From Paraflavisolibacter caeni (GTDB lineage: Bacteria; Bacteroidota; Bacteroidia; Chitinophagales; Chitinophagaceae): 64,000 nt of DNA. Under the pieces are notes generated by a model, which did not search any database, was not told the DNA's origin, and saw only the letters and a list, made by a program, of their open reading frames with translations. Positions 44,853-64,000 of the stretch are shown piece after piece. Both the position numbers and the translations under genes were made by a program. The stretch covers positions 62,001-126,000 of the forward strand of contig NZ_JAOTIF010000007.1 of NCBI RefSeq assembly GCF_025628885.1, in the 5' to 3' direction. Positions within the stretch are counted from its first letter, which is position 1. Each line of letters opens with the position of its first letter.

Positions 44853-44854
44853 AC

Positions 44855-45680: not shown

Positions 45681-46595
45681 ATGAAACTGGTAACATTTAA
45701 GAACCCTGAAGGTCAATCAAGAGCAGGATGGCTCACTGAGGATGGCGTTGTGGATATGCAAATGATCAGCAAAGGCGCACTGCCTGATGACATGCTCTCT
45801 TTTATTGATGATCATGAAAGGTATTTTTCCATTATTCAGGATCAAAGCTTACATGAGGCAAAACCCACCTATTCATTATCTGAAGTAAAACTATTAGCGC
45901 CCCTGCCTAATCCGCGCAGCTTCAGGGACTACATTGGTTTTGAGCAACACATGCTCAATGCTTCTGCCAAGTTCGGACACAAGATCGGAGATGCCTGGTA
46001 TGAAATGCCTATCTTTTATTTTACCAATCACCATGCTATTTATGGACCAGATGATGAGATCAAACGTCCTTCCAAAGAAACCAAACTGGATATTGAACTG
46101 GAAATTGCAGTGATCATTGGCAAAAAAGGCAAAGACATCAAAGCTGAAGAAGCCGATGAATACATTTTTGGCTTTACTGTTTTCAATGACTGGACAGCCC
46201 GCGCCATACAGAAAAAGGAAATGGAAGTGCCTTTGGGTCCTCACAAAGGAAAAGACTTTGCCAATGCAATTGGTCCCTGCATTGTTACCAGAGATGAGAT
46301 GAATCAGTATCTCAGGGAAGATGGAAAGTTCAACCTTCGCATGACAGCAAAGATCAACCAGTCTACTATATGTGACGGAAACTACAATACTGTTTATCAC
46401 ACATTTGCCAAAATGATCGAAAGGGCTTCAGAGAATAATGTAACCCTCTATCCGGGAGATATCCTTGGCTCTGGTACAGTAGGTTGGGGAAGCCTGATTG
46501 AGAACAATTTCGAGGTGCATCGACCATTGGAGCCGGGTGATGTGGTGGAATTGGAAATTGAAGGTATTGGCGTGTTGAGAAATAAAGTTGTTTAA
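45681..46595 (+). CDS. Fumarylacetoacetate hydrolase family protein
   Basis: A 304-residue FAH-fold protein. The metal-binding acids E139, E141 (DIELEIAVIIG) and D170 (FTVFNDWTARA) are present, with GPHKGKDFANAIGP and PGDILGSGTVGWGS further on. Members hydrolyse, decarboxylate or hydrate the keto acids produced by extradiol ring opening. It follows the SDR after 73 bases and is one base from the next gene's ATG, so it belongs to the ring-cleavage operon. Confidence 0.88.
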   Translation: MKLVTFKNPEGQSRAGWLTEDGVVDMQMISKGALPDDMLSFIDDHERYFSIIQDQSLHEAKPTYSLSEVKLLAPLPNPRSFRDYIGFEQHMLNASAKFGHKIGDAWYEMPIFYFTNHHAIYGPDDEIKRPSKETKLDIELEIAVIIGKKGKDIKAEEADEYIFGFTVFNDWTARAIQKKEMEVPLGPHKGKDFANAIGPCIVTRDEMNQYLREDGKFNLRMTAKINQSTICDGNYNTVYHTFAKMIERASENNVTLYPGDILGSGTVGWGSLIENNFEVHRPLEPGDVVELEIEGIGVLRNKVV

Positions 46596-46596
46596 G

Positions 46597-47643
46597 ATGC
46601 TGATTCAAAAAAAGACCATAAATCCACTAAAAGGCTGGCAAGTTGATCCTGCTGTTATCAACTATTTGGGAAAAGACTTACAGCGGCCTGAATGCATTCT
46701 TACAGAAGAGGATGGAACTGTTTGGAGTGCAGACGCAAGGGGTGGATTGGTAAAAATGAACCATCAGGGAGAGCAGGTGATCATTAATCCGTTTAAAGAC
46801 ACCGGATCAAATTTAGATACATTTGATCAAAAGGCCGATCATGCAAGATATATAACGGCATCAGGCTCTTTGCCTAATGGTGTCTGTTTCGATGTTAATG
46901 GAGATTTTATTATTGCCAATTGGGGTACCAATCACATTGAACGAATGACCCGTGAAGGGAAGTTAACCACCCTTGTTTCTGAAATTGATGGACGCCCTTT
47001 AGGAAAGACCAACTTTCCGTTAAGAGATTCAAAAGGCAGGATCTGGTTTTCAGTGACCACACAAACAGAACCCTGGTCTGATCAAATCAATACCAGAGCT
47101 ACTGATGGATACATTGCCCTGATGGATGAAAAAGGAGCGCGCATTGTGGCTGATGGTTTTTGCGGGACCAATGAAATTCGTTTTGATGAAATGGAAGAAT
47201 GGTTGTATGTAGTGGAAAGCACTGGTTGGAAAATCTCCAGGCTGCGTGTACAAGAAGATGGAAGGTTAACGAACCGTGAAGTATATGGGCCTTCACAGTT
47301 AGATGGTTTTCCCGATGGATTTGCCTTTGATGCTTTTGGTAATTTATGGATCACCCTGATTTTTACTGATGTACTGATTGCCATTACTCCTGATGGTGAA
47401 GTACTTAACATTCTGGATGACAGCAATCCTGATACTAAGAAGCAATTATTCGAGGCCTATCACAATGGTAGTGTTACGCCAGAAATTTTAGGAGTCACTA
47501 AAGGAACTATTGCGCCTTGGATGGCTAGTCTCTCCTTTGGTGGTCCAGATTTGAAGACCGTTTATCTGGGTAGCTTGAGAGGGACTAATGTACCTTATTT
47601 CAAATGTCCGGTATCTGGACAAAAAATGATTCATTGGAAATGA
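46597..47643 (+). CDS. SMP-30/gluconolactonase-family lactonase
   Basis: About 348 residues from the ATG at 46597, one base after the FAH stop. The six-bladed propeller signature is visible as PECILTEEDGTVWSADARGG near the N-terminus, LPNGVCFDVNGDFIIANWG, and FPDGFAFDAFGNLWITLIF. These proteins hydrolyse lactones using a divalent metal. In this operon it could open a lactone formed from the oxidised sugar or from a ring-cleavage product. There is no signal peptide, so it is probably cytoplasmic. Confidence 0.82.
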   Translation: MLIQKKTINPLKGWQVDPAVINYLGKDLQRPECILTEEDGTVWSADARGGLVKMNHQGEQVIINPFKDTGSNLDTFDQKADHARYITASGSLPNGVCFDVNGDFIIANWGTNHIERMTREGKLTTLVSEIDGRPLGKTNFPLRDSKGRIWFSVTTQTEPWSDQINTRATDGYIALMDEKGARIVADGFCGTNEIRFDEMEEWLYVVESTGWKISRLRVQEDGRLTNREVYGPSQLDGFPDGFAFDAFGNLWITLIFTDVLIAITPDGEVLNILDDSNPDTKKQLFEAYHNGSVTPEILGVTKGTIAPWMASLSFGGPDLKTVYLGSLRGTNVPYFKCPVSGQKMIHWK

Positions 47644-47708: not shown

Positions 47709-48005
47709 ATGATTTTAGAATTAGTAACATTAGACATCAAGCAAGGCACAAATGCAGCCTTCGAGGAAGCATTAGAAAAGGCACAATCAGTGATCAGTCA
47801 ATCCATGGGTTATGTAGGACATCAATTCCACAAGTGCATTGAGCAAGAAAACCGTTATGTATTTCTGATACGCTGGCAAACATTAGAAGATCATACCAAA
47901 GGCTTTCGTGAATCTGACTTGTTTCAACAATGGCGAGCATTGATCGGGCCTTATTTTGAAAATCCACCTTTTGTTCAGCACTATGAACTGAAGTTCGAAA
48001 AATAA
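47709..48005 (+). CDS. Antibiotic biosynthesis monooxygenase (ABM) domain protein
   Basis: A 98-residue ferredoxin-like dimeric alpha/beta barrel protein. It begins MILELVTLDIKQG and contains the ABM pattern YVGHQFHKCIEQENRYVFLIRW followed by DHTKGFRESDLFQQW. Relatives are cofactor-free quinol monooxygenases or haem-degrading proteins. In this setting oxidation of a hydroxylated aromatic is plausible. The gene starts 65 bases after the lactonase. Confidence 0.8.
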   Translation: MILELVTLDIKQGTNAAFEEALEKAQSVISQSMGYVGHQFHKCIEQENRYVFLIRWQTLEDHTKGFRESDLFQQWRALIGPYFENPPFVQHYELKFEK

Positions 48006-48041
48006 GTGGTGACGATTTCTACATTATTTAAAAAATCAACG

Positions 48042-48800
48042 ATGAAAATCATAGATCTTTCTGTAACCATTTCTCCTGAAATAAAAGAACCCTTGCCTAC
48101 TTCGATTGTGTATGAAGATCACAAGGAAGGTGCAAAAAAAATGGGAGCCAAGTTGTTTAATGGTATTCCTGGTGATGCATTTATTGATGGTAATGGTCCT
48201 GCGGGTGAATTTTTAAGCGTGACCAGTCATGCGGGCACACATGTAGATGCCCCCTGGCATTATTTTCCGACTTGCGATGGCAAACCTGCACGGACCATTG
48301 AGCAATTGCCTTTGGAGTGGTTCTTTAACGATGGCGTGGTACTGGATTTTACTGACAAACCTGAAGGTTACAGTATAACGGTGGATGATCTAAAAGAAAA
48401 GTTAGCTGCCATCAATTACACCTTAAAGCCTTTTGATATTGTACTGATCCGTTGCGATGCCGATAAAAGAATTTACGATGATGATTTTGTAAAAATTCAT
48501 GTGGGAGTTTCTGCAGAGGCTACACATTGGTTGATCGACCAGGGAATAAAAGTCATGGGTACCGATGGGTGGGGATGGGATATTCCACTACATTTGCAGG
48601 TTCAGGATTACCTGAAGAATCCCCGCCCTGGTGTTATCTGGGAGGCTCATTACGTTGGCCGTGAAAAAGAATATTGCCAGATTGAAAAGATGGCAAATCT
48701 TAGCCAATTACCTCCTTACGGATTTAAAGTTGCTTGTTTTCCCGCTAAAATAAAAGGAGGAAGCGCCGGTTGGACGAGGGCTGTGGCCATTTTGGAATAA
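48042..48800 (+). CDS. Cyclase/kynurenine-formamidase-family metal-dependent hydrolase
   Basis: A 252-residue protein from the ATG at 48042; an upstream GTG at 48006 would abut the preceding stop and adds an unrelated extension. The family metal motif is complete: SHAGTHVDAPWHYF (HxGTHxDxPxH), with KVMGTDGWGWD further on. Relatives hydrolyse N-formylkynurenine, isatin or cyclic intermediates. The substrate here is likely a ring-cleavage intermediate, by operon position. Confidence 0.82.
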   Translation: MKIIDLSVTISPEIKEPLPTSIVYEDHKEGAKKMGAKLFNGIPGDAFIDGNGPAGEFLSVTSHAGTHVDAPWHYFPTCDGKPARTIEQLPLEWFFNDGVVLDFTDKPEGYSITVDDLKEKLAAINYTLKPFDIVLIRCDADKRIYDDDFVKIHVGVSAEATHWLIDQGIKVMGTDGWGWDIPLHLQVQDYLKNPRPGVIWEAHYVGREKEYCQIEKMANLSQLPPYGFKVACFPAKIKGGSAGWTRAVAILE

Positions 48801-48830
48801 TCAACCAATTACTCATTTAAAAACTGTACA

Positions 48831-50021: not shown

Positions 50022-50051
50022 ACTGTTTTACTAACGATAAAAACGATTGCT

Positions 50052-51188
50052 ATGTCAACAGTAAGGAATGTGTTGATTGTAGGAGGTGGTATTGGAGGGT
50101 TATCTTCAGGTATCGCTCTAGCCAGAAATGGCTGTTCTGTTACTATTGCTGAACTCCACCAGGAGTTCAATGTCTATGGAGTGGGCATTATCCAGCCTGC
50201 TAATGCCCTGAGAGCTTTAGATGCGCTGGGACTGGCCGATGAAGCCATGCGAAGGGGTTCTCCTTATGGCCTGGTGAAAATGTGCACTGCTGCAGGGCAT
50301 GTCTTTACTCAAGTTGGTGTGCCGCCTATAGGCCGTCTTCCCAGTCACAATGGTATTTCCAGAAGAATCCTGCATGAGATTCTCTACGAAGAAGCGGTAA
50401 AGCAAGGTGTTGTCTTTAAAATGGGAATGTCTGTTGCTGTAATTGAAAATAAAGCAGATGAAGTAGGTGTACAATTTACAGATGGCACAACTGGTACTTT
50501 TGATCTCTTGATTGGCGCCGATGGTGTGTACTCCAAAGTCCGCAGCCTGATGTTTGGTCAATACAAGCCTCGATACACCAATGAATCGGTTTGGCGTTAT
50601 CCTTTCAAGCGTTTACCAGAATTGGAGACTGGTTATATGTTTATGGGCAAGCGTTCTAAAGTGGGGTTGATTCCCATGACTGCTGATACTATGTATATGT
50701 TCCTTGTTACCTCAGAAGGAGAGGACAATCCCTTTATTCCGGAAGAGGAACTTGTGCCTAGAATGAAAGCCTGGTTAGAGGAATATTCGGCTCCAATGGT
50801 GCAAAAAGTAATCAACGAAATCACAGATCCTAAAAAAGTGGTGTATCGGCCATTGGAAGTACTCTTTGTTCCTGCACCCTGGTACAAGAACAGAGTTGTG
50901 TTGATTGGAGATTCGGTACACGCTACTATTCCGCAGTTGGGGCAGGGGGCAGGTCTGGCATTGGAAGACTCCATTGTGTTGGCAGAATTGCTGCAAAAGG
51001 AAAATGATGTAACAGTTGCCTTGCAGCAGTTTACCGACAGACGGATTGCTCGCTGCAAAATGGTAGTGGATGTATCAGTACAGGTAGGCGAGCTGGAACA
51101 GTTGGACTGGAAGGGTCAACTGCCCGAAGGCATCAACATTGGTGCGATCATGGGGAAAGCACTGGGTGAAATGATGCAACCTATTTAA
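50052..51188 (+). CDS. FAD-dependent aromatic hydroxylase (PHBH fold)
   Basis: A 378-residue single-component flavoprotein monooxygenase. The dinucleotide motif is GGGIGG (residues 11-16), the DG motif is in LLIGADGVYSKVRS, and the second FAD motif is RVVLIGDSVHATIPQLGQGA. Such enzymes insert a hydroxyl into an already phenolic ring, creating the diol that an extradiol dioxygenase needs. In naringenin degradation by Herbaspirillum a hydroxylase of this kind (FdeE) precedes an extradiol enzyme (FdeC), an arrangement comparable to the pair here. Confidence 0.88.
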   Translation: MSTVRNVLIVGGGIGGLSSGIALARNGCSVTIAELHQEFNVYGVGIIQPANALRALDALGLADEAMRRGSPYGLVKMCTAAGHVFTQVGVPPIGRLPSHNGISRRILHEILYEEAVKQGVVFKMGMSVAVIENKADEVGVQFTDGTTGTFDLLIGADGVYSKVRSLMFGQYKPRYTNESVWRYPFKRLPELETGYMFMGKRSKVGLIPMTADTMYMFLVTSEGEDNPFIPEEELVPRMKAWLEEYSAPMVQKVINEITDPKKVVYRPLEVLFVPAPWYKNRVVLIGDSVHATIPQLGQGAGLALEDSIVLAELLQKENDVTVALQQFTDRRIARCKMVVDVSVQVGELEQLDWKGQLPEGINIGAIMGKALGEMMQPI

Positions 51189-53371: not shown

Positions 53372-54307
53372 GTGACTAAAGAAGATTTTATATCGACCTT
53401 CAATCCCTCTGAATTAGCTTCAGAGTTAAGCCGTGGAGGGTTTCAATTGCCTTCTTTTATTACCCCTGCCCATCATGTTTTTCATATCAACCGGATTGAA
53501 GATTATATCCATGCCGTCAATTTTCCTCTACCTTCAGATTTACACCCACGCCGAATAACATTGTATAACTTCTTTTTTCTCACAAAAGGATCAAGTATTC
53601 GAAGTAAAGGTTTAGATAAATACCAGTTTGGAGCAAACACTTTTTTCTTTTTACCGGCATATGAGATCATGACACATGAATTTATCAGTGAGGATGCAGA
53701 AGGATATTATTGCCATTTTAGTTTAGACTTGTTGGTATCAGACTATAAACTAAAAGACCTGCTCAACGATTTTCCTTTTTTAAATTTCAATTGTTATCCA
53801 TTAGTGACCATCAACGATGAATCGAAAGAATGCATCTTGCCACTTTTGAATAGACTTGAAAAGGAATATAAAGCAGGGGAGCAATGCCGGTATGAAATAT
53901 TAAGAGCTTATCTGATCGCCTTATTTACTGAAATCAAGCCCTTTGCGACCATTTCTTCGTCGCTTTCACATAATTCTGCATACCAGATCACTGAACAATT
54001 TAAAAAGGCTTTATCGCAACACATTTACCAAAAACAAAAGATCACGGATTATGCTGAAATGCTTGCTGTAACTCCTAATCATTTAAACAAATGTGTCAAA
54101 ACGGTTACCGGTAAATCTGCACATGAGCTATTGAGTGATATGGTATTGTTGGAAGCTAAGGTGTTGTTGAAACAAACCAGCCTTAGTGTTTCTGAAATTG
54201 CTTACCAAATTGGGCGGAGTGAGGTCAGTGATTTTGCCCGCTTTTTTAAATCAAAGACAGGAATGAAACCCGGAGAGTACAGAAAAATGGTAAATCCTGA
54301 AATATAA
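53372..54307 (+). CDS. AraC-family transcriptional regulator B
   Basis: A 311-residue paralog of the regulator at 36690, starting with GTG. The sensing domain shares GSSIRSKGLDKYQFGANTFF and the segment after it. The HTH domain (YAEMLAVTPNHLNKCVKTVTGKSAHELLSDMVLLEAKVLLKQ, seen in parts) is even closer. It lies 389 bases ahead of receptor C and is the natural candidate to control the diverged operator there. The two paralogs probably read related phenolic or glycoside signals. Confidence 0.92.
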   Translation: MTKEDFISTFNPSELASELSRGGFQLPSFITPAHHVFHINRIEDYIHAVNFPLPSDLHPRRITLYNFFFLTKGSSIRSKGLDKYQFGANTFFFLPAYEIMTHEFISEDAEGYYCHFSLDLLVSDYKLKDLLNDFPFLNFNCYPLVTINDESKECILPLLNRLEKEYKAGEQCRYEILRAYLIALFTEIKPFATISSSLSHNSAYQITEQFKKALSQHIYQKQKITDYAEMLAVTPNHLNKCVKTVTGKSAHELLSDMVLLEAKVLLKQTSLSVSEIAYQIGRSEVSDFARFFKSKTGMKPGEYRKMVNPEI

Positions 54308-54696: not shown

Positions 54697-57564
54697 ATGA
54701 CTTCGACTTCCTTAAAGAAGGCCTTGCATTCAATTGGGCTGATTATTTTTCTCATCTTATTTAGTGTACAAAGCTTTGCTCAAGCCGGCAGCGTAAGCGG
54801 GACAGTAACAGACGCCGAAGGTAAACCCATTGTAGGCGCCACAGTTAAAATCAAAGGTGCCAATAAAGCAACTGTAACAAAGGAAGGCGGAACTTTTTCA
54901 TTTAGCAATGTTCCCGGTAGTGGTACGCTGATCATTTCTCATATTGCTTATACAACAATGGAAACTCCCTTTTCTTCCGACAAGGCAATAATAATATCCC
55001 TTAAGGAATCAACTAAAATGGTTGATGAAGTGGTGGTAACCGGCGTATTTGATAAGCGGACCGCTTTACAATCATCAATAGCCATCAGCACATTGAAAAG
55101 CGATGCCATTTCCAAGCTGGCTCCCAATAGTGCTGCAGATCTGCTGAGTTACACACCGGGTGTTTATGTGAACTCTTCTGTTGGGGAGATCAACAATACC
55201 GTGTTTTCCAGAGGGGTGAATGCCAATCAGTTTTCTGTGGCGGGTGGTAATGGCTATTATTACGTATCGCTTATGGAAGATGGATTACCTGTATCTAATC
55301 TTTCCTCCGGCAATATTGTGGCCGATTATTTTTACAGGGCTGATGCTACTTTATCACGCCTGGAATCCGTTAGGGGTGGTTCTGCTTCTATTACAGGCGC
55401 CAATGCTCCGGGCGGTATCTTTAACTATGTTTCCAAGACAGGCCAGAACGCTTCCAATGAACTTACTTATAAGTTTGGGTTAGAAGGTGATGGTAGAAAC
55501 GCTTACAATCGCCTGGATGGAAATTTCGGAGGTAAGTTAGGCACTAAAGGTTGGTTCTATAATGTAGGTGGTTTCTACAGAATCTCTCAAGGAGCCCGTT
55601 CTCCAGGCTATGCTCAAAATAAAGGAGGACAATTCAAAGCCAATTTGGTAAAGACCTTTTCCAATGGTTCTGTGAAAATATTTGCCAAATATTTGAATGA
55701 TAAAAACGGTCTGCCACAAAATCTGCCTGCCAGGAATTATGATAAGCCCCAGTTGGTAGAAGGTTTTGGTGAAGCAGATACTTATATGTTGCCAGATATT
55801 TCGGTAAAATCTCCTTTATGGGGGACTGACAAGACCTACACTTTTGATCCTTCAAACCTTTCGCATTCAAAAGATTATTCGCTGGGTTCTGAATTGAATC
55901 TGAGACTTGGCAATGGCTGGTCATTAACCAATAACTTCAAGGTGGATCATAAGAATGTAGAGCAAAGTTTAACCATCATGGCCAATCCAACCCCATTGAA
56001 TGGATTCTTTACTTATGCCTTAATGGGGATGGTTGGCCCTGGTACTTTTTCCTTTAAGGATAGAAACACTAAGACTGAACTGGCATCAGTTTCCGCTGCC
56101 TTTGACCCTACCGTACAAGGTCCGCCGTTCCGTTATACTATCCTGAAGAATAATTTACCAGCAAATAGTGTGATGCAAGACGGTGTGTTGTTCAATTTTA
56201 CCAATTACAGCAATAGCAAGTTGAATGAAGTGATGGATCAACTTACGTTTAATAAAAAGGCAGGCAAGCATTCTATTTCTTTTGGTTCATTTATTGCCTC
56301 TTCTCATGTAGAAACAGATCCGAACGGAACTGCCAATACGGTGATAAGGCCAATAGAAAATAAACCTCAACCATTGGATATTACCTGGACACAACTGAAT
56401 GGCAAAACTTACCAGGTAACCAGTCCTGAAGGCTATGCTCAATTATCGGGTGGCAGGTTTTCGTTTAATAAATATGAAGTGACACAAACACAATTATCCG
56501 GATTCCTTGCCGACGGTATTCAGTTATCTCCAAATTTAAACCTGGACTTGGGCGTTCGTTTTGATCACATTATAGTTGATGGAAGCAATAATATTGGCGT
56601 TGAAAATCCAAAGTCTGAGGAGGGTGGAATAGACAAAGATCCTTTAACATTATATGACAACTTCTATTTTGTAAAAGGCGAGGACATTCCTTATAAAACG
56701 AATTTAAATACAGTTTCCTATTCAGCAGGTATTAACTATCAGATTAATCAATCCAATTCGATTTATGGCCGGTATTCCAGTGGTCGGAAGTCGCCTGATA
56801 TGCAATTCTATTTTGATAATTACAACACACCAGGCGTCAGCCCTGAAGCCCGTGCACAAAAAGTGAATCAAATAGAAATAGGCTATAAGTTCAAAAGCAA
56901 AAAGATTACAGGTTCTATTATACCCTTCTATAGTGAGTTGAGCGACATTCCAGTGTCTTCTATAGGTCAGGATACAACCGGTCTAAGTTATTTCACACCA
57001 GTAGTCTTCAATGCCATCCGCACTTTTGGGGTAGAGGGAGAAGCGAATGTATTTCTTACCAAACACTTTGATGTTCGGGTTGGTTTAACGGTTCAGTCGG
57101 CAAAAGCTACCACATGGCAAAGTTGGGTGATGGGAGCAAACGGCAAACAAGATGATAAACTGACTGACAACAATGGGAACACAGCGGAGAATATTCCAAA
57201 TCTGATGTACACTGTGGTGCCTACTTATTCTTTCAAAAGCGGCTATGTATTTGCCGGTTGGAAATATATGGGCAAAAGAGCTGCCAATATGTCCAATGCA
57301 TTTGACTTACCCGGTTTTCATGAATTCAACCTGGGGGCAGGCTATAACCTGACTAAAAGGATAGGTGTTGCTGCCAACATCAACAATCTATTCAACACTT
57401 TTGGTGTCATGAACTGGTCGGCTACCACTGAGGATAATATTATTGATGGTTTTAGCCATAATAGTTTTACTCCTGAAAAAAGGAAAGCCAATCCTAATTC
57501 TGTTTATTCAGTGCTTCCCATTCAACCAAGAGCTTACTTCGTATCGGTAACTTATAAATTTTGA
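54697..57564 (+). CDS. TonB-dependent receptor, siderophore-receptor-like, paralog C
   Basis: A 955-residue third paralog. The N-terminus is MTSTSLKKALHSIGLIIFLI with a signal peptide ending SFAQ, then GKPIVGATVKIKG in the CarboxypepD_reg-like domain, plug motifs VDEVVVTGVFDKRT and VRGGSASITGANAPGGIFNYVSK, and a barrel ending FVSVTYKF. No SusD is nearby. An MFS transporter gene starts 32 bases after its stop, followed by C-glycoside-cleavage-type genes. It is therefore probably the outer-membrane gate for a C-glycoside, with MFS as the inner-membrane step (inference). Confidence 0.9.
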   Translation: MTSTSLKKALHSIGLIIFLILFSVQSFAQAGSVSGTVTDAEGKPIVGATVKIKGANKATVTKEGGTFSFSNVPGSGTLIISHIAYTTMETPFSSDKAIIISLKESTKMVDEVVVTGVFDKRTALQSSIAISTLKSDAISKLAPNSAADLLSYTPGVYVNSSVGEINNTVFSRGVNANQFSVAGGNGYYYVSLMEDGLPVSNLSSGNIVADYFYRADATLSRLESVRGGSASITGANAPGGIFNYVSKTGQNASNELTYKFGLEGDGRNAYNRLDGNFGGKLGTKGWFYNVGGFYRISQGARSPGYAQNKGGQFKANLVKTFSNGSVKIFAKYLNDKNGLPQNLPARNYDKPQLVEGFGEADTYMLPDISVKSPLWGTDKTYTFDPSNLSHSKDYSLGSELNLRLGNGWSLTNNFKVDHKNVEQSLTIMANPTPLNGFFTYALMGMVGPGTFSFKDRNTKTELASVSAAFDPTVQGPPFRYTILKNNLPANSVMQDGVLFNFTNYSNSKLNEVMDQLTFNKKAGKHSISFGSFIASSHVETDPNGTANTVIRPIENKPQPLDITWTQLNGKTYQVTSPEGYAQLSGGRFSFNKYEVTQTQLSGFLADGIQLSPNLNLDLGVRFDHIIVDGSNNIGVENPKSEEGGIDKDPLTLYDNFYFVKGEDIPYKTNLNTVSYSAGINYQINQSNSIYGRYSSGRKSPDMQFYFDNYNTPGVSPEARAQKVNQIEIGYKFKSKKITGSIIPFYSELSDIPVSSIGQDTTGLSYFTPVVFNAIRTFGVEGEANVFLTKHFDVRVGLTVQSAKATTWQSWVMGANGKQDDKLTDNNGNTAENIPNLMYTVVPTYSFKSGYVFAGWKYMGKRAANMSNAFDLPGFHEFNLGAGYNLTKRIGVAANINNLFNTFGVMNWSATTEDNIIDGFSHNSFTPEKRKANPNSVYSVLPIQPRAYFVSVTYKF

Positions 57565-57596: not shown

Positions 57597-58838
57597 ATGA
57601 AAGGAACAGCAGTCATCAACATGAATCAAACAGCATACATCAATCGGCCTGTATCGGTTCAGCGTAAAGCTGGTGCAGGACAGGCCTGGACATTGATCTT
57701 CGCGATGTTTTTGCCCATTATGGCCATTATTGGTTTGGCTCCTGCATTACCCACTTTGATGGTGCATTTTAATTACATCCCTAATCACCAAGTGTTGGTG
57801 CCAATGTTATTGACTGCTCCAGGATTGTGTATTGCGATACTCTCTCCGTTTGCAGGAAGACTGAGTGATTTGTTTGGCCGTCGTCGCTTGATACTTATTG
57901 CAATGTTCATTTATGGGATTGGTGGTGTTATTCCTTTTTTCCTGGAAAACTTTTGGGCGGTTATGGTTGGCAGAGTACTACTTGGAATAGCAGAAGCCTT
58001 TGTGTTGACAATTGGTAATGCATTGCTTGCTGATTATTTTGCAGAGCATGAAAGGCCTAAATGGCTTTCAGTTCAAGGTGTTGTTGGTCCTGTGTTGGCA
58101 ACTGTTATTATTTACGGGAGTGGCTTTTTAGCTGGAAAGGGATGGCAGTGGCCATTCATCGTATACGCACTTGCTTTTCCCATCTTTATTGCCGGGTGGT
58201 TTTATTTGTGGGAACCTGAACAGAATAAAGAAAAAGAACAAGCACCTGTCAATATGGAGGCCTTTCCATGGCGGACAATATCCTGGATATGTTTGGTAAC
58301 GCTTGTTTCTTCTGTTATCTATTATGTTTACATCATTCACTTCTCTCTTGTATTAACTGCCAATGGTATTACCAATGAAAGTAAAATTGGAATGATCACC
58401 GCTATTGCCAGTATTGCGGTTCCTTTAGGTGCGTATCTGTTTAAACAAATTTCCGGGCGTTCTATATTTTTTCTTCTGCTGCTTATTTATGCTTTGATGG
58501 GTATTGGATACATCGGTATGAGTATAGTTCATCATGAAAAATGGATTGTTGCTACAGCATGGATACAACAAGTAGCTGTTGGTTTAACTGTACCTACATT
58601 GGTAGCATGGGCGCTCAAAAGCCTGCCATCTGAACACAGAGGCCTGGGCATGGGATTTTGGGCAGCGAGTTTCTTTATTGGCCAATTTGTAAACCCATTG
58701 GTTGTTGGCTATATCAATTACCTGACTGGCGGCATACTCACAACAGTTATGGTTGTAGGTATTATTTGCCTGTTGCTTGCGGTTTTAGTGTGGCTTCCAA
58801 AGTTCTATTGGCAAAATAAGGGAGCAAAATCATTGTAA
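57597..58838 (+). CDS. MFS transporter
   Basis: A 413-residue, about 12-helix major facilitator. The signature loop between helices 2 and 3 is GRLSDLFGRRRL (about residues 84-95), and the central loop (EPEQNKEKEQAP) separates the two halves. It would move a small solute across the inner membrane by proton symport. In this operon it follows the receptor and precedes cytoplasmic sugar-cleaving enzymes that lack signal peptides, so it should import the intact glycoside. The exact substrate is unknown. Confidence 0.9.
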   Translation: MKGTAVINMNQTAYINRPVSVQRKAGAGQAWTLIFAMFLPIMAIIGLAPALPTLMVHFNYIPNHQVLVPMLLTAPGLCIAILSPFAGRLSDLFGRRRLILIAMFIYGIGGVIPFFLENFWAVMVGRVLLGIAEAFVLTIGNALLADYFAEHERPKWLSVQGVVGPVLATVIIYGSGFLAGKGWQWPFIVYALAFPIFIAGWFYLWEPEQNKEKEQAPVNMEAFPWRTISWICLVTLVSSVIYYVYIIHFSLVLTANGITNESKIGMITAIASIAVPLGAYLFKQISGRSIFFLLLLIYALMGIGYIGMSIVHHEKWIVATAWIQQVAVGLTVPTLVAWALKSLPSEHRGLGMGFWAASFFIGQFVNPLVVGYINYLTGGILTTVMVVGIICLLLAVLVWLPKFYWQNKGAKSL

Positions 58839-58880
58839 AATTTATTACAAAAAATCAATTCTTATCTACAATATTAAATT

Positions 58881-59909
58881 ATGAACATGTCTAATCATCA
58901 AATTAAACGAGGTGTAAGTCTATACAGTTATCAGGAAGAATTTTTTCTTCAAAAAATGTCATTGGAAGATTGCATTGCGGCTGTAGCTAAAACTGGTGCA
59001 ACTGGTATAGAGATCTTAGGCGAACAGAGTATCTGGGGGTTTCCCAAATTAACAGATGCGTTTGTAGACCAGTGGTTCGGATGGATGGATAAATACGGCG
59101 TAACACCGGTCTGCCACGACTTTATGCTTGATTATACCATGACCAAAGGAAAATATTATTCAGATGATGAGGCTCTGCAATCTATCATCAGGGATTTAAA
59201 ATTTGCCAAGCGTCTTGGGTTCAAAATCATGAGAGCCATTGTGAACATCACTCCTGAACTCATGGAGAAAGCGGCTCCTTATGCCGAAGAATACGATATC
59301 AAAATCGGAATTGAAGTGCATTCGCCCTGGCACATCAACAGTGCCTGGATGGCAAGGCATTGGGAGGTGATGGAAAAAACCGGGTCCAAATACCTGGGCT
59401 TTGTTCCGGATATGGGTGCCTTTACCAAACGCCTGGCCAGAGTGCAAACAGATAGAATGATCAGGGAAGGTGCTGATCCAAAAATTGTGGAATTCGTATG
59501 CGAGCAGCACGAGAAAGGTATAATGGCTGAATATATCATTGCCCAGGTATCACAAATGTCTAAACGGCGGATCGATATAGCCGTGGCAGAACTCACCAGG
59601 CACAATACCTATTACAATCCCATTGCATTACTTCAGCACATACCGCGCATCTTCCATATTCATGCTAAGTTTTATGAAATGTTAGATGATGGTACAGAAT
59701 ACAGCATTCCATATGAGGACATTATCCAGATATTAATCAAAGGCGGTTACAATGGTTATTTATCCAGCGAGTATGAAGGTAACCGTCATATTCAGGATGT
59801 TTATGAAGTGGATAGTGTTGAACAGGTGCGGCGTCAACAAGAAATGTTTAAACGTTTGTTGGGAGAAGAAGTTGCACCTAATAAAAAATCAATTGTTGTT
59901 CAAGCTTGA
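58881..59909 (+). CDS. TIM-barrel protein, C-glycoside deglycosidase alpha-subunit-like
   Basis: A 342-residue xylose-isomerase-like TIM barrel without a signal peptide. Probable metal ligands are E145 (IGIEVHSPWH), D177 (GFVPDMGAF), H261 (FHIHAKFYE) and E297 (LSSEYEG). The opening RGVSLYSYQEEFF and the SSEYEGN end are shared with alpha subunits of the bacterial enzymes (DgpC/CarC/DfgA type) that break the sugar-aryl C-C bond of 3-oxo-C-glycosides. The decisive support is the DUF6379 gene 67 bases downstream, the usual beta subunit. As an isolated sequence it could be called a sugar phosphate isomerase/epimerase. Confidence 0.82.
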   Translation: MNMSNHQIKRGVSLYSYQEEFFLQKMSLEDCIAAVAKTGATGIEILGEQSIWGFPKLTDAFVDQWFGWMDKYGVTPVCHDFMLDYTMTKGKYYSDDEALQSIIRDLKFAKRLGFKIMRAIVNITPELMEKAAPYAEEYDIKIGIEVHSPWHINSAWMARHWEVMEKTGSKYLGFVPDMGAFTKRLARVQTDRMIREGADPKIVEFVCEQHEKGIMAEYIIAQVSQMSKRRIDIAVAELTRHNTYYNPIALLQHIPRIFHIHAKFYEMLDDGTEYSIPYEDIIQILIKGGYNGYLSSEYEGNRHIQDVYEVDSVEQVRRQQEMFKRLLGEEVAPNKKSIVVQA

Positions 59910-59976
59910 ACCAACTAAAGAAATAGCCGTCTGAAGTTTAATTACAAATTCTATTACAATTTTCAAAAAAAGTAAG

Positions 59977-60375
59977 ATGATACAGATGTTTGAAAAATAT
60001 ATGATTGTTGAAAAAGATGTGGAGAACATCGTTGAAAATGGAAAAATTACTGGCTTCAAATTCGGAGCGAGGCTCCCTTATTATCGTGGTATTGCCCTTT
60101 CGTTGTTGGAAGACATTGGCGTAAACATTGACGGAGCAGAAGTTCCAAAAGAAGACATAAAGTTTAATGTACATGGCAACACCTATACGCTTGAACAAAT
60201 GGAATCAGCAGTAGATGACCGCTGGAATATGGGTGAAGTGGCTTACATTATTATTGATAAGGAAGGTGGATTATTAAAAGGCGACCACCAGGTTCGTTTA
60301 ATGCTCAACATGCGCATCGCTTATCTTCCATTTCCATCTATTAGGAATAGTGAGAAAACGATCTCTATTGCTTAG
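59977..60375 (+). CDS. DUF6379 protein, C-glycoside deglycosidase beta-subunit-like
   Basis: A 132-residue beta-rich protein. The family core is clear: FEKYMIVEKDVENIVENGKI, then RLPYYRGIALSLLEDIGVNI, VHGNTYTLEQME and VDDRWNMGE, ending with RIAYLPFP. In characterised C-glycoside deglycosidases this small subunit packs on the TIM barrel and shapes the active site. There is no signal peptide, so the complex is cytoplasmic. Adjacent to its partner gene, it is the strongest single marker of C-glycoside metabolism in the window. Confidence 0.85.
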   Translation: MIQMFEKYMIVEKDVENIVENGKITGFKFGARLPYYRGIALSLLEDIGVNIDGAEVPKEDIKFNVHGNTYTLEQMESAVDDRWNMGEVAYIIIDKEGGLLKGDHQVRLMLNMRIAYLPFPSIRNSEKTISIA

Positions 60376-60445
60376 GCTAATCAATTCTGAATTGGATTTC
60401 GTGTCAAGAATATGAAGTCCAGAACCATCAATCCAAATTCAAACA

Positions 60446-60847
60446 ATGGGACCATTAGATAATTTCATTCTTGCGGATGATGCTTTGCAAGCAACTCCTA
60501 CCGGATTTACGCTTCAATTCCATTCACATTGGTATCGATCATTGCCGCTTTCGTGTATGAGCTGCAAAGCCATCATTAATGGACAAGCTATTGATGAAAG
60601 TGAAGTTTTTATTGAAGCCAATGGAAATAAATATCCTTTCAGTGAAATGCCTAATTTATACAAAGAGTGGCTTTTCATTACCGATGGTGCCAGGTTGCAC
60701 GTAAACGGTGTTGAACCTTTACAGAAGGGAAAACAATATAACATCGAGTTTAAGCTGGATCTATTCATTCCCTATATACTGGTTGGCAGAGAAGGCAACC
60801 CCTTGTTAGCATCAAGTACTGTAACAAAACAATTAACCTGTAATTAG
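60446..60847 (+). CDS. Second DUF6379-type beta-subunit-like protein
   Basis: A 133-residue protein distantly related to the previous one. FTLQFHSHWYRSLPLSCMSCKAIINGQAIDE matches the RLPYYRGIALS segment in position, followed by VFIEANGNKYPFSEMP and LYKEWLFITDGARL. It ends immediately before the start of the second TIM barrel (stop codon next to ATG), so translational coupling is likely. It presumably forms a second alpha/beta complex with that barrel. Confidence 0.75.
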   Translation: MGPLDNFILADDALQATPTGFTLQFHSHWYRSLPLSCMSCKAIINGQAIDESEVFIEANGNKYPFSEMPNLYKEWLFITDGARLHVNGVEPLQKGKQYNIEFKLDLFIPYILVGREGNPLLASSTVTKQLTCN

Positions 60848-61870
60848 ATGAAACACCCCAATATAAAACTCTGTACTTCCCTATTTTCTTTTGCACTCGA
60901 GTGGAATTCAGGTAAGTATTCATTGGAACAACTAATGTCAAAAGTGCGGGAACTGAACTTAGGACCTGGAATTGAGATCATTGGTTTTCAAAGTCTGAAA
61001 GGTTTTCCATATCTCTCCGACAATACAATTGTAGATGTCAGAAGATTGATTGAGCAATTTGGCTTTGAGCCAGCTTGCCTGGATGCAAATGTTGATGTGG
61101 CCATAAGAAGGGACAGGCTTCTTACTATTGAAGAAACAGTTGAATACATTATTCCACAAATATGGGCTGCAAACAAGCTAGGTTTTCCTGTGCTTCGTGT
61201 TCAAATGACAGCCAAGCCTGAAGTCATCAAAAAGCTCGTACCGGTTGCAGAAAAGGCAAATGTCAAACTAGGTATGGAATTACATACGCCTTATCTGATT
61301 GACCACCCTGCCGTTGTTGCTCTGCGTGAGTTATATGAAGAAATGGATTCGCCATTCCTTGGATTCATTCCCGATTTTGGTACCTCCATGCGCCAAATTC
61401 CGGATGCGCTGCTACACAGTTTTCGCGAGGTAGGTGTCACTGATGAACTCATTGCCATCACCAAAGAAATCTGGCAAAAAGATATACCCACACCAGCCAA
61501 ATTTGGTGAATTGCAGGAGCGAGCATCAGCATTGGGAGCCACTCCACCTCAAATTGGAAGACTGAACATGGCATTCAGTATGAATGGCCGGCAGGATGTC
61601 AATGCCTGGAAGGAAATCATTCCGCAGACAGTTCACCTACATGGCAAGTTTTATGGTTTTGACGAGCATGGTGATGAGCCTTCGATTGACTATGCGGCTA
61701 TTTTGAAAGTGTTTTATGAAGGAGGATACAGAGGATATGTTTCAAGCGAATATGAAGGCACAGCGTTTACCGATGAATTTACAGGGTTTGAAATGGTGCA
61801 AAAACACCACGCACTTTGTAAAAAGATTTTAGAAAATATTCAAGAAAAAGAATATGCACGCACTGTGTAA
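60848..61870 (+). CDS. Second TIM-barrel, C-glycoside deglycosidase alpha-subunit-like
   Basis: A 340-residue TIM barrel related to the one at 58881 but clearly diverged. The metal set is conserved: E144 (LGMELHTPY), D176 (GFIPDFGTS), H265 (VHLHGKFYG) and E301 (VSSEYEGTAF). The start codon directly follows the stop of the second DUF6379 gene, which supports a dedicated complex. It might act on another aglycone class or on the sugar released by the first complex. Confidence 0.8.
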   Translation: MKHPNIKLCTSLFSFALEWNSGKYSLEQLMSKVRELNLGPGIEIIGFQSLKGFPYLSDNTIVDVRRLIEQFGFEPACLDANVDVAIRRDRLLTIEETVEYIIPQIWAANKLGFPVLRVQMTAKPEVIKKLVPVAEKANVKLGMELHTPYLIDHPAVVALRELYEEMDSPFLGFIPDFGTSMRQIPDALLHSFREVGVTDELIAITKEIWQKDIPTPAKFGELQERASALGATPPQIGRLNMAFSMNGRQDVNAWKEIIPQTVHLHGKFYGFDEHGDEPSIDYAAILKVFYEGGYRGYVSSEYEGTAFTDEFTGFEMVQKHHALCKKILENIQEKEYARTV

Positions 61871-61991
61871 ACAAGTTTTATCAATCAAACTACTTCTATG
61901 ATTGCATAAAGGCCATGCATTTCGTACTACTGAAACAGATGTGTGGATTGTTTGCAAACCTATTTGGAAGTATAAAAACCCAATTTGATCA

Positions 61992-62912
61992 ATGGCTACA
62001 ACTAAATATTCATTCAATCTTAATTATGCGCCTCATTTCGGCATGTTTGAAAACCTGGCCGGAAAAGATCTATTCGACCAATTAAGGTTTATGGCCGATA
62101 CTGGATTCCGGTCTTTTGAGGATAGTGGCAGAGTTGGTGAAAACTTTCCCCGGGCATTTGGAATTGGCATGGTCGGGCAGCCGCCGGAACTGCTGGATAA
62201 AATTGGAGAGACATTAGCTAATTTGGGTATGGAAATGGGAACATTCCTTCTGCCGCCCACATTTTGGCCACCCAAAGCAACACTGGCATCAGGCAATGTT
62301 GAATGGCGTGCCCTTTTCCTGGAGCAATGCCATAAAGTAGTAGAAACAGCCAAACGGCTTAATGGACGTTATGTTACTGTGGTTGCAGACACTTTTGATT
62401 ATTCGCTTCCTTTAGATATTCAAACAGCTAATGTTATTGAAGGACTGCGTTATGCATGCGATATTTTTGAACCTCATGGAATTACAATGGTGCTGGAACC
62501 ATTAAGTGATCACCCGAGTTTATTTCTACGCACTTCCACCCAAGCATACCTGTTATGTAAAGCGGTGAACAGAAAGTGTTGTAAAATACTTTTCGACATG
62601 TATCATTTGCAGAAAAATGAAGGGCGCCTGATCTATCACATGGATCAATGTTGGGATGAAATAGGTTATTTTCAAGTAGGAGATGAGCCGGGACGTAATG
62701 AGCCCATGACTGGTGAAATCAATTATAAGAACATCTTTAAGCATATTGCTGAAAAGTCAAAAGCTACGAACAAGGAATTCATATTAGGGATGGAACATCA
62801 TAATTCTCTGTCCGGAGAAGAAGGTGAAATGACAGTTATCAATACCTATAGATGGTGTGATGATTTTAATGAAAAAGAAATTGCTATAACCAGCGAAAAA
62901 TTATTAAGCTGA
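61992..62912 (+). CDS. TIM-barrel isomerase/epimerase (hydroxypyruvate isomerase-like)
   Basis: A 306-residue xylose-isomerase-like barrel of the Hyi group. FNLNYAPHFGMFENLAGKD opens it, and MVLEPLSDHPSLFL, ILFDMYHLQKNEG, FQVGDEPGRNEP and LGMEHHNS carry the metal-binding acids and histidines. No DUF6379 partner accompanies it. Its stop overlaps the next ATG by one base (TGATG), so it is coupled to the GMC oxidoreductase. A role in isomerising the dehydrated keto-sugar product is plausible. Confidence 0.82.
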   Translation: MATTKYSFNLNYAPHFGMFENLAGKDLFDQLRFMADTGFRSFEDSGRVGENFPRAFGIGMVGQPPELLDKIGETLANLGMEMGTFLLPPTFWPPKATLASGNVEWRALFLEQCHKVVETAKRLNGRYVTVVADTFDYSLPLDIQTANVIEGLRYACDIFEPHGITMVLEPLSDHPSLFLRTSTQAYLLCKAVNRKCCKILFDMYHLQKNEGRLIYHMDQCWDEIGYFQVGDEPGRNEPMTGEINYKNIFKHIAEKSKATNKEFILGMEHHNSLSGEEGEMTVINTYRWCDDFNEKEIAITSEKLLS

Positions 62913-64000
62913 TGAAACAAATTCAAACAGATGTTTTAATAGTTGGCAGTGGCCCTATTGGCGCAACGTATGCACGCTTGATCAAAGATGCTCTTCCGGA
63001 TACAAAAATCCTAATGATTGAGAAGGGGCCTAGGCTTACTGGTAAAGCGGGAATGCATGTGAAGAATATCGAAGACGATCAGGAACGGGAAAGGGCACAA
63101 ATACTTTCGCAGGGACCGCATCAAAAGCCGTATCCATTGATTACGGTTACAGAGCGAGCTAACGCAGTCAATATGGGTGAATTGAGCATTGACCTATTAG
63201 GAAGGCCGGGTACTCACCTTGTATCAGAAAATGCAGAAGACCTGAAGGCCAATGAAATGCCTGCAGCTTCCTGCTCAACCAATGTAGGTGGCATGGCAGC
63301 GCACTGGACATGTGCCTGTCCAAGGCCAGGGAATGCAGAGCGGATTCCGTTTATACCTGATGTTGAAATGGACCAGGCACTTACAAAGGCAGAAAAGCTG
63401 CTATGTGTTACCCAATCAGCTTTTCCGGAAAGTGCAGAAGGTTTGGCTATTCAAAAAGTTTTGGGCGATATTTTTAATGAGCAGCTTACCAGTGGCAGGA
63501 AGGTGCAACCAATGCCACTGGCTTGTATCACAAATGAAAAAGGAGAGCGGTATTGGGTTGGTCCTGACGTTATTCTGGGCGACCTAGCAGAGCCCGGATA
63601 TGCCGGTAATTTTGAATTGCGAGATCAAACTATCTGTCGACAACTTTATAAGGAAGACGGTCATGTTACTGGCGCACTGATCGAACATCTTCCTTCCGGA
63701 ACAAGAGAAGAAGTGAAAGCAAAGCTGGTAATTGTGGCCTGCGATGCCTTACGTACGCCGCAATTGCTGTGGGCATCGGGTATTCGACCAAAAGCTTTGG
63801 GACATTACCTGAATGAGCATCCTTTCATCTTCTGCTTTGTTGAATTAAAAGATGACCTGGTTGATACCACGCTTGGCAAACGGTACGATCAGTCTAGCCG
63901 AACAGAGCCAACCATAGGTGTCTTCTTGGTACCTTTTGATGATCCGGGCCATCCGTTTCATGCCCAAATTATGCACATGGATGTGTCGCCGTTGAAAATT
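62912..64000 (+). CDS. GMC/pyranose-oxidase-like FAD oxidoreductase (3' partial)
   Basis: The frame is open for 363 codons to the end of the window. The N-terminal FAD motif is VGSGPIGATYARL (G12-x-G14-x-x-G17). NVGGMAAHWT (residues 124-133) matches the GGMxTHWT segment of pyranose oxidases, in which the histidine (here H131) carries the flavin covalently. LGHYLNEHPF-like sequence follows. Relatives among bacterial C-glycoside 3-oxidases oxidise O3 of the sugar, the step needed before C-C cleavage. The gene starts on the overlap TGATG with the preceding isomerase. The C-terminal catalytic His lies beyond the window. Confidence 0.85.
   Translation, partial: MKQIQTDVLIVGSGPIGATYARLIKDALPDTKILMIEKGPRLTGKAGMHVKNIEDDQERERAQILSQGPHQKPYPLITVTERANAVNMGELSIDLLGRPGTHLVSENAEDLKANEMPAASCSTNVGGMAAHWTCACPRPGNAERIPFIPDVEMDQALTKAEKLLCVTQSAFPESAEGLAIQKVLGDIFNEQLTSGRKVQPMPLACITNEKGERYWVGPDVILGDLAEPGYAGNFELRDQTICRQLYKEDGHVTGALIEHLPSGTREEVKAKLVIVACDALRTPQLLWASGIRPKALGHYLNEHPFIFCFVELKDDLVDTTLGKRYDQSSRTEPTIGVFLVPFDDPGHPFHAQIMHMDVSPLKI

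Follow-up and report, generated by a model that had tools for sequence, protein, structure and literature searches.

C-glycosides resist ordinary glycosidases and, to our knowledge, work on their degradation under aerobic conditions has mostly concerned the two initial steps, namely oxidation and C–C cleavage. The locus described here raises the question of whether a Gram-negative member of the Bacteroidota encodes these steps together with import of the glycoside and breakdown of the freed aglycone. It was analysed in a window, i.e., the whole stretch of 64,000 nucleotides, and in the DNA beyond its end. Judging by sequence, the operon found there very likely serves the import, oxidation, and C–C cleavage of aromatic C-glucosides.

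Organization of the operon

The operon encodes, on one strand, a regulator, a receptor, a transporter, two complete alpha/beta pairs of C-glycoside deglycosidase (CGD, a heteromeric enzyme), an isomerase-like TIM barrel, and a GMC enzyme. All of these genes are open reading frames, in the following order:

53372..54307, + strand: AraC-family regulator (Pfam HTH_18, E 1e-19), 389 bp upstream of the receptor
54697..57564, + strand: TonB-dependent outer-membrane receptor, carboxypeptidase-regulatory domain and plug (Pfam TonB_dep_Rec_b-barrel 9e-30, Plug 1e-12)
57597..58838, + strand: MFS inner-membrane transporter (Pfam MFS_1, E 5.5e-44)
58881..59909, + strand: CGD alpha A, TIM barrel, DaCGD-like (8qvc_A, E 1e-120; 53% identity to DaCGD alpha)
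59977..60375, + strand: CGD beta1, CGDB/DUF6379, presumed partner of alpha A (Pfam PF19906, E 1e-41; 8qvc_B, E 3.5e-22)
60446..60847, + strand: CGD beta2, CGDB/DUF6379, presumed partner of alpha B (PF19906, E 3.6e-11; best solved chain 7dnm_B, AgCarC2, E 2e-6)
60848..61870, + strand: CGD alpha B, TIM barrel, AgCGD2-like (7dnm_A, E 2.8e-67; 35% identity to AgCGD2 alpha)
61992..62912, + strand: hydroxypyruvate-isomerase-like TIM barrel (Pfam AP_endonuc_2, 7e-24; best solved match 3ngf_A, E 8.5e-15)
62912..64000, continuing to window-equivalent 64516, + strand: GMC oxidoreductase, C-glycoside 3-oxidase/pyranose oxidase family (8qve_A, E 5e-158)

By profile, these comprise a TonB receptor, an MFS_1 protein, three AP_endonuc_2 TIM barrels, and two CGDB proteins. 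Gaps between the receptor and the GMC gene range from -1 to 121 bp: 32 bp (receptor–MFS), 42 bp (MFS–alpha A), 67 bp (alpha A–beta1), 70 bp (beta1–beta2), 0 bp (beta2–alpha B, which starts at the base directly after the beta2 stop codon), 121 bp (alpha B–isomerase-like gene), and -1 bp (isomerase-like gene–GMC). Thus, the description of consecutive genes with tight or overlapping junctions given in an earlier sequence-only reading holds for order, strand, and junctions of -1 to 70 bp, with one looser gap of 121 bp. Its span has to be extended, since the receptor and the AraC gene precede position 57597, where that reading began.

The receptor is 47% identical to the one at window position 38420 and 44% to that at L005:1553. 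A canonical SusC/SusD polysaccharide utilization locus was rejected as an interpretation, since the receptor scores 88 bits against a cut-off of 368 for OMP_RagA_SusC and is followed by the MFS gene, with no adjacent SusD. Elsewhere in the window, a SusD gene does sit beside a receptor. The G+C content is 0.41 in the window and 0.40–0.44 in the operon and its flanks, values so close that base composition gives no signal of an imported island either way. The earlier reading named a TonB-fed version of the pathway as what a Gram-negative Bacteroidota would need. TonB receptors also accompany CGD genes outside this phylum: on a Sphingobium and a Novosphingobium plasmid, they are annotated at distances of about 0.6 kb and 9 kb, respectively. 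No literature linking C-glycosides or C-glycosyl compounds to TonB was found among openly licensed PMC papers, which is weak evidence of absence.

Deglycosidase pairs of different clades

The two small proteins exceed the Pfam CGDB cut-off in a profile test set beforehand, and the solved chains closest to them are beta subunits of CGDs. The TIM barrels match solved CGD structures far better than expected by chance (E 1e-120 for alpha A and 3e-67 for alpha B) and keep all seven key residues. In alpha A, residues E145, H147, D177, H261, K263, E297, and E299 align with E147, H149, D179, H269, K271, E305, and E307 of AgCGD2, which form its metal site and catalytic residues (PMC8563793). A third CGD pair, nearest PuCGD, lies about 23 kb beyond the operon (L005:5761-7211), and the same seven residues are kept in alpha B and alpha C. 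Moreover, of the 88 related alpha sequences compared (aligned over more than 280 residues; L001-L005, L007, L008, and L010 omitted as duplicates), 85 share all seven, the exceptions being one protein of the alpha A type and two of the alpha B type. Profiles, nearest structures, and residues together support the initial reading of a C-glycoside cleavage operon, which was essentially right. The protein at 61992-62912 was considered as an additional CGD alpha encoded in the operon and rejected, as it matches none of three CGD alpha subunits significantly and lacks the seven residues in its alignment row.

Structure modelling of alpha/beta pairs covered beta2-alpha B, as a read-through model (pLDDT 91.9, pTM 0.76). 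Taken singly, its domains reach TM scores by target of 0.92 to 7dnm_A and 0.87 to 7dnm_B in Foldseek. Against 8qrz, the one solved natural beta-alpha fusion, Foldseek aligned 484 columns at an rmsd of 18.7, the relative placement of the domains being different.

Pairs A and B fall into separate CGD clades, the former with DaCGD of Deinococcus aerius, its nearest relative, and the latter with the 8-C-specific AgCGD2. DaCGD reportedly prefers 6-C-glycosides. Arthrobacter globiformis likewise possesses two CGDs, AgCGD1 and AgCGD2, with 6-C and 8-C preference (PMC8563793). A tentative assignment would have pair A act on 6-C-glycosides and pair B on 8-C-glycosides. AgCGD2 (AgCarB2-C2; 7dnm/7dnn) is the closest solved pair to alpha B and beta2, yet identity is only 35%, and alpha B differs from its pocket at six of seven positions (Y17, R123, S124, P241, F242, and N248), M249 being kept.

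The GMC oxidase

The last gene, complete at L004:912-2516, encodes a protein of 534 aa, the first 362 of which match the pyranose oxidase model TIGR02462 at E 4e-39, below the curated cut-off of that model. The whole protein matches 8qve_A (E 5e-158), 7dve_A (1e-120), and 7qf8_A (1e-114), and is thus closer to bacterial CarA, PsG3Ox, and 8qve than to fungal pyranose 2-oxidase (3bg7, 1e-33). Its catalytic His and Asn, H451 and N495, align with H440 and N484 of PsG3Ox. We take 8qve to be the oxidase of the D. aerius cluster.

Relation to known systems and distribution

Alpha A, beta1, and the GMC enzyme are all nearest to the D. aerius cluster (PDB 8qvc, 8qvd, 8umc, 8qve; Furlanetto et al. 2024). 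A related Deinococcus aetherius plasmid shows the order alpha-beta-GMC; the stretch of it that was read contains a single CGD pair, along with genes for ABC transporters, whereas the present operon has two pairs and TonB/MFS import. The CarABC/PurABC systems of soil Actinomycetota likewise combine an FAD-dependent GMC oxidase with a CGD; here, the CGD is doubled, a TonB receptor and an isomerase-like gene lie within the operon, and aglycone modules are linked to it. The Dgp/Dfg systems of gut Bacillota have a homologous alpha/beta CGD, to which the PuCGD-like third pair of this genome relates, but DgpA is a Gfo/Idh/MocA oxidoreductase (PMC8563793), whereas its counterpart here is a GMC flavoenzyme. 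The view that such systems are characterised mainly in Firmicutes and Actinobacteria no longer holds: PMC12724307 already reports PurABC homologues in Bacteroidota from a 2025 database search, and the present analysis met with relatives in Pseudomonadota, Acidobacteriota, Chloroflexota, and Deinococcota.

Within the phylum, CGDB matches are rare: they were found in 4 of 395 sampled genomes, this one included, and in 3 of 395 once G364 was dropped, its match being an HMG-CoA reductase at 28.6 bits against the Pfam CGDB cut-off of 27.6. Among 38 relatives, the genome itself was the only one matched, with none in the 17 other genomes of its genus. Nine Bacteroidota loci with enough flank were compared (L011, L015-L020, L027, and L068); L013, which shares its genome with L068, and L069, which is too short (3 kb), were left out. 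The run alpha A-beta1-beta2-alpha B occurs in seven of them (not L020 or L068), with a 2.7-kb insertion in L016, and a GMC gene 54-72% identical to the present one in seven (not L019 or L020). L019 has the CGD pairs with a GMC match of only 22%. An upstream TonB receptor accompanies six loci and was not found in L018, L020, or L027.

Aromatic modules flanking the operon

The operon is flanked by two copies of an aromatic module encoding an FAD monooxygenase, an extradiol dioxygenase, a C–C hydrolase, and a fumarylacetoacetate-hydrolase-family protein (FAH), with a cyclase gene in one copy. The upstream copy comprises:

36690..37655, + strand: AraC-family regulator ahead of the module (Pfam HTH_18, 1.4e-18)
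38420..41284, + strand: TonB receptor heading the module (Pfam TonB_dep_Rec_b-barrel, 5e-33)
41339..42331, + strand: extradiol (catechol-2,3-dioxygenase-like) dioxygenase (TIGR03211, E 2e-67, below its cut-off; PDB 9wgj_A, 1.4e-57)
42367..43536, + strand: alpha/beta hydrolase, 2,6-dihydroxypseudooxynicotine-hydrolase-like, putative C–C hydrolase (2jbw_A, E 1.3e-26)
43554..44852, + strand: histidinol-dehydrogenase-like protein (Pfam Histidinol_dh, 2e-138; same position on Hymenobacter and Emticicia plasmids)
44849..45607, + strand: SDR dehydrogenase (Pfam adh_short_C2, 3e-52)
45681..46595, + strand: FAH-family protein (Pfam FAA_hydrolase, 2e-54)
46588..47643, + strand: SMP-30/gluconolactonase-like protein (Pfam SGL, 1e-21)
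48006..48800, + strand: PF04199 cyclase-family protein (Pfam Cyclase, 7e-36)
50052..51188, + strand: FAD monooxygenase, putative aglycone A-ring hydroxylase (Pfam FAD_binding_3, 3e-27; PRK06847 above cut-off)

The second FAD monooxygenase (L004:7717-8862) is 86% identical to the first, and homologues of PobA, PcaDC, PcaH, PcaG, and PcaIJ start about 32 kb beyond the operon. Each module copy unites in one cluster, at family level only, the FAD monooxygenase, dioxygenase (glyoxalase-type in the known systems), and 2,6-dihydroxypseudooxynicotine-hydrolase-like alpha/beta hydrolase of the fde (Herbaspirillum) and ifc (Variovorax) pathways (PMC11069340), the products of fde feeding protocatechuate and pca genes (PMC11303751). 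Unlike fde and ifc, the module here adjoins C-deglycosylation genes and carries HisD-like, FAH, and cyclase genes.

Such an arrangement recurs. All 64 CGD loci were counted, including 15 that span less than 18 kb. Of these, 11 are flanked by at least three of the five classes of aglycone-module genes (2 loci in Bacteroidota, 3 in Bacillota, and 6 in Pseudomonadota), 8 by one or two, and 45 by none. In Pseudomonadota, the identity of the module genes is low, at 25-43%. The D. aetherius plasmid carries all five classes after its CGD alpha-beta-GMC genes on one strand. Control stretches (L006, two 20-kb window pieces, L014, and L012) contained no module genes, although controls were few and two came from the same window. 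A dioxygenase with at least 75% identity to the present one occurs in 5 of 395 genomes of the phylum, among them all three with a true CGDB, a co-occurrence expected by chance at about 1e-6 (8e-5 without this genome).

It is therefore fairly probable that the operon is coupled to A-ring cleavage by the flanking modules, and the ring of the released aglycone is probably broken down by these neighbouring genes. That the modules are independent of the operon and merely share a catabolic hot spot is unlikely: each unit does have its own AraC gene and two of three neighbours their own TonB receptor, and the module exists without CGD genes on two Bacteroidota plasmids, the dioxygenase without a CGDB match in genomes G407 and G423, and the two on separate contigs in Runella; however, the recurrence in three phyla is seen even though genomes hold 0-2 such monooxygenases (24 genomes, chosen partly for a flank monooxygenase), and the Deinococcota plasmid has module genes in line with those of the CGD.

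Proposed pathway and substrates

From genes, families, catalytic residues, and neighbourhoods, we infer the substrates, transport, step order, specificities, and regulation as follows. The AraC protein (53372..54307), presumably the sensor of the operon, would respond to substrate or product, and the operon is probably inducible. The TonB receptor and the MFS transporter would carry the intact glycoside to the cytoplasm, where the GMC flavoenzyme would oxidize C3 of the sugar using O2. The metal-dependent CGD would then remove the C2 proton, leading to beta-elimination of the aglycone and formation of 2-hydroxy-3-keto-glucal, with the two pairs of different clades serving two bond positions. 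The isomerase-like protein may act on this product and, together with reductases encoded elsewhere, channel the sugar into glucose metabolism. Finally, the flanking modules would hydroxylate and then open the A ring, the acid derived from the B ring being converted to protocatechuate.

The most likely substrates are C-glycosyl flavones, and the locus likely allows C-glycosyl flavonoids to be catabolized completely. It is rather improbable that the aglycone comes from another aromatic C-glycoside, for example a xanthone like mangiferin or an anthraquinone like carminic acid. PsG3Ox oxidizes mangiferin (PMC10646112), several CGDs act on 3'-oxo-mangiferin while MiCGD prefers 3'-oxo-carminic acid (PMC8563793), and the closest cluster, that of D. 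aerius, is titled for C-glucosyl flavonoids and xanthonoids, which keeps mangiferin a candidate; against this, the module families match naringenin and isoflavone A-ring cleavage and protocatechuate genes lie beyond (PMC11069340, PMC11303751), a resemblance at family level only.

It is more doubtful still that the operon mainly serves O-linked glucosides, through 3-oxidation and beta-elimination, and that its action on C-glycosides is incidental. In favour of this reading, a gut CGD eliminates 3-keto O- and C-glucosides alike (PMC10628242), PurA oxidizes daidzin, genistin, and apigetrin (PMC12724307), and the contig also carries O-glycoside hydrolase genes (GH1, GH3, GH43, and two GH106). Against it, the 3-oxo products that PurA forms from O-glycosides fall apart spontaneously (PMC12724307) and so would need no CGD, and the CGD complex is reported as required for C–C cleavage (PMC8563793). 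In addition, a Hymenobacter plasmid joins the same aglycone module to hydrolases and is absent from the 20 plasmids in which a CGD alpha was matched at E 1e-30.

Concluding remarks

Whether C-glycosyl flavonoid catabolism extends over the whole region is evenly balanced: a single genomic island, which would span some 64 kb from window position 38 kb to the window-equivalent of ~102 kb, may mineralize these compounds from the outer membrane to central metabolism, with three CGD classes (DaCGD-, AgCGD2-, and PuCGD-like) for different bond positions, and "C-deglycosylation plus A-ring cleavage" may form a supermodule that recurs in four phyla (Bacteroidota, Bacillota, Pseudomonadota, and Deinococcota) and serves generally in the aerobic degradation of plant C-glycosides. 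Since genes for import, oxidation, two or three putatively position-specific deglycosidases, and opening of the aglycone ring come together at this locus, a complete pathway can be predicted from it, and each gene can be tested in turn in a Gram-negative member of the Bacteroidota. Moreover, the adjacent new CGDs, which belong to two clades, provide material for understanding 6-C versus 8-C selectivity. If the link to ring cleavage holds, CGD genes would be markers of full flavonoid mineralization, beyond the scavenging of sugar.

Operon Layout and Predicted Glycoside Oxidase

The genome of Paraflavisolibacter caeni comprises 7.01 Mb, of which the window covers positions 62001-126000 of contig C67 (NZ_JAOTIF010000007.1). 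The genes of the proposed C-glycoside cleavage operon share the forward strand, and the junctions from the TonB receptor to the GMC oxidoreductase measure, in gene order, 32, 42, 67, 70, 0, 121, and -1 bp.

Features of the operon and its surroundings (window coordinates unless stated; L004 and L005 are stretches of the same genome beyond the window)
36690-51188, upstream aromatic module: AraC, TonB receptor, extradiol dioxygenase, hydrolase, HisD-like, SDR, FAH, SMP-30, cyclase, FAD monooxygenase
from 53372, +, AraC gene
from 54697, +, TonB receptor
from 57597, +, MFS transporter
from 58881, +, TIM barrel, alpha A
from 59977, +, CGDB protein beta1
from 60446, +, CGDB protein beta2
from 60848, +, second TIM barrel, alpha B
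from 61992, +, isomerase-like TIM barrel
62912 to window-equivalent 64516, +, GMC oxidoreductase
L004:17953-18591, gluconate-2-dehydrogenase subunit 3-like gene, adjoining the second GMC
L004:18684 to L005:366, second GMC oxidoreductase
L005:5761-7211 (C67:149761-151211), third pair, CGDB (E 3e-31) and TIM barrel, about 23 kb beyond the operon

Taken at full length, the GMC protein matches bacterial glycoside oxidases (8qve, E 5e-158; 7dve, 1e-120; 7qf8, 1e-114) much more strongly than it does the pyranose 2-oxidase of fungi (1e-33). Its residues H451 and N495 align with the catalytic H440 and N484 of the glycoside 3-oxidase PsG3Ox (PMC10646112). At the sequence level, the predicted first step of the pathway is of the Car/Pur (GMC) type, unlike that of Dgp, which is NAD-dependent, a type to which the operon's oxidase does not belong.

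Deglycosidase Subunits

C-glycoside deglycosidases (CGDs) combine a TIM barrel alpha subunit with a CGDB (DUF6379) beta subunit. The sequence-only reading had assigned the two small proteins to DUF6379, and the profile search bore this out, since PF19906 (CGDB, C-glycoside deglycosidase beta subunit) matched beta1 (E 1e-41) and beta2 (E 4e-11), both above the curated cut-off. Among solved chains, beta1 is closest to 8qvc_B and 8umc_B, and alpha A to 8qvc_A (E 1e-120), with 53% identity to the Deinococcus aerius enzyme (DaCGD); for beta2 the closest chain is 7dnm_B, and for alpha B it is 7dnm_A (E 3e-67), with 35% identity to AgCGD2 of Arthrobacter globiformis.

In AgCGD2, the metal is liganded by E147, D179, H269, K271, and E305, and the enzyme employs H149 together with E307 (Mori et al. 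2021, PMC8563793). When these positions were located in aligned CGD alpha sequences (94, plus one outgroup), both alphas of the operon and the genome's third alpha proved identical to AgCGD2 at all seven (7/7), as did 85 of the 88 further alpha sequences. In a maximum-likelihood tree (94 rows), in which several long branches were flagged, DaCGD and alpha A share a large clade, AgCGD2 and alpha B lie in another, and the genome's third alpha groups with the gut enzyme PuCGD. In a Bacteroidetes MAG (L018:11816-12661), alpha B stops early and its similarity is lost near the C-terminus, reflecting either a pseudogene or an assembly error.

Beta2 and alpha B share one frame and are kept apart by a single stop codon, unlike the natural single-chain CGD of Microbacterium testaceum (PDB 8qrz/8un2), which has the same beta-alpha order. 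With the stop codon read as a residue, the two form a 474-aa chain, which was modelled together with 27 additional rows; mean pLDDT was 91.9 and pTM 0.76. Foldseek returned 7dnm_A as the top match (TM by target 0.92), and the beta portion fits 7dnm_B (0.87). Superposed on 8qrz, the only solved natural beta-alpha fusion, the model aligned over 484 columns with an rmsd of 18.7 and, thus, does not confirm the relative placement of the subunits.

Proposed Mechanism and Bond Position

Mori et al. proposed a mechanism of metal-hydroxide and His-assisted dearomatisation, deprotonation at C2, and beta-elimination, by which 1,5-anhydro-D-erythro-hex-1-en-3-ulose is set free (PMC8563793). In an Agrobacterium O-glycoside operon, preliminary evidence suggested that a TIM-barrel 'isomerase' hydrates 2-hydroxy-3-keto-glucal (PMC10628242). 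By analogy, the isomerase-like protein encoded at 61992 may hydrate this compound too.

DaCGD reportedly prefers 6-C glycosides, as described by Furlanetto et al. in 2024. AgCGD2 took only the 8-C substrate orientin (PMC8563793). On the basis of these two preferences, pair A (alpha A/beta1) would serve 6-C glycosides and pair B (alpha B/beta2) 8-C glycosides. The 8-C assignment of pair B is weak, since six of the seven compared pocket residues of alpha B differ from AgCGD2.

Genomic Surroundings

Upstream, the hydrolase of the aromatic module is nearest to 2,6-dihydroxypseudooxynicotine hydrolase, and a putative malic-enzyme-like gene is also present. Downstream of the operon, an AraC gene precedes second copies of the dioxygenase (76% identical), hydrolase (66%), FAH (75%), and monooxygenase (86%), and a cyclase copy is absent from this module. 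These are followed by GH106 rhamnosidase, GH43, thiolase, CoA-transferase, and MFS genes, by the subunit 3-like gene with the second GMC, and by the third CGD pair, which is nearest to PuCGD (32% identity) and preceded by an AraC gene and a TonB receptor of its own, along with a distinct FAD monooxygenase. Farther downstream lie PEPCK and homologues of PobA, PcaDC, PcaH, PcaG, and PcaIJ.

Pairs of gluconate-2-dehydrogenase subunit 3-like and GMC proteins can be periplasmic glycoside 3-dehydrogenases and, therefore, the pair found here may be an O2-independent alternative oxidant. Two GH106 alpha-L-rhamnosidase genes (window 29136-35468, behind a TonB receptor, and L004:8896-12303) fit a flavonoid-glycoside island, since rhamnose is a common flavonoid sugar. 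A glycan locus (window 8232-28829) encodes GH1, FecR, a plug-domain receptor, SusD, GH35, a GH120-insertion protein, GH3, GH43, and GH2. A 146-aa frame (L005:7327-7767), whose end matches an Fn3-like domain frequent in GH3 enzymes and whose start resembles a GH3 N-terminus by eye, is probably an internally deleted glycosidase.

Distribution of CGD Loci

Scanning named genomes with alpha A yielded 64 loci in Bacteroidota, Pseudomonadota, Bacillota, Actinomycetota, Acidobacteriota, and Chloroflexota. Among the nine other Bacteroidota loci with enough flank, the run alpha A-beta1-beta2-alpha B recurs in seven, a GMC gene (54-72% identical) in seven, and an upstream TonB receptor in six. The CGDB family is patchy, being found in 3/395 genomes of the phylum and in none of 17 other genomes of the genus. 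One false positive was removed from the phylum count (genome G364), where L014:9009-10580 (-) encodes an HMG-CoA reductase scoring 28.6 bits against the Pfam CGDB cut-off of 27.6.

C-glycoside cleavage genes in Bacteroidota are not new, since PurABC homologues had been found there by database search (PMC12724307). In the accessible portions of the openly licensed literature, no prior account was found of a doubled CGD with a TonB receptor or of a recurrent CGD link to an A-ring cleavage module.

Probable Association of the Aromatic Modules with C-Glycoside Cleavage

The modules resemble the isoflavone (ifc) cluster of Variovorax, which likewise uses an FAD monooxygenase, a dioxygenase of the glyoxalase type, and an alpha/beta hydrolase of the same kind; related enzymes occur in the naringenin (fde) operon (PMC11069340), the products of which lead to protocatechuate and pca genes (PMC11303751). 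When five module classes (dioxygenase, hydrolase, FAH, cyclase, and monooxygenase) were counted in the flanks of the 64 CGD loci, at least three were present at 11, namely Bacteroidota L015 and L019, Bacillota L043, L053, and L070, and Pseudomonadota L033, L038, L040, L045, L046, and L054; one or two occurred at eight loci and none at 45. On a Deinococcus aetherius plasmid, CGD alpha-beta-GMC is followed by all five classes on a single strand. Moreover, the dioxygenase (at least 75% identity) occurs in 5/395 genomes, including all three with true CGDB, an overlap with a chance probability of about 1e-6, or 8e-5 without the P. caeni genome, both uncorrected for kinship and shared habitat.

Counter-evidence comes from Hymenobacter and Emticicia plasmids, where the module lies beside glycosidase genes without CGD, from two further genomes carrying it without CGD, and from Runella, where CGD and dioxygenase are on separate contigs. 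The plasmid modules of Hymenobacter monticola (L107), accompanied by GH1/GH3/GH43 and a full pca set, and of Emticicia oligotrophica (L108) are 57-84% identical to the present one and are probably a mobile flavonoid O-glycoside version. Considering the family likeness to ifc and fde, the recurrence in CGD flanks, the D. aetherius plasmid, and the co-occurrence among 395 genomes, the aromatic modules of P. caeni probably belong with the C-glycoside operon.
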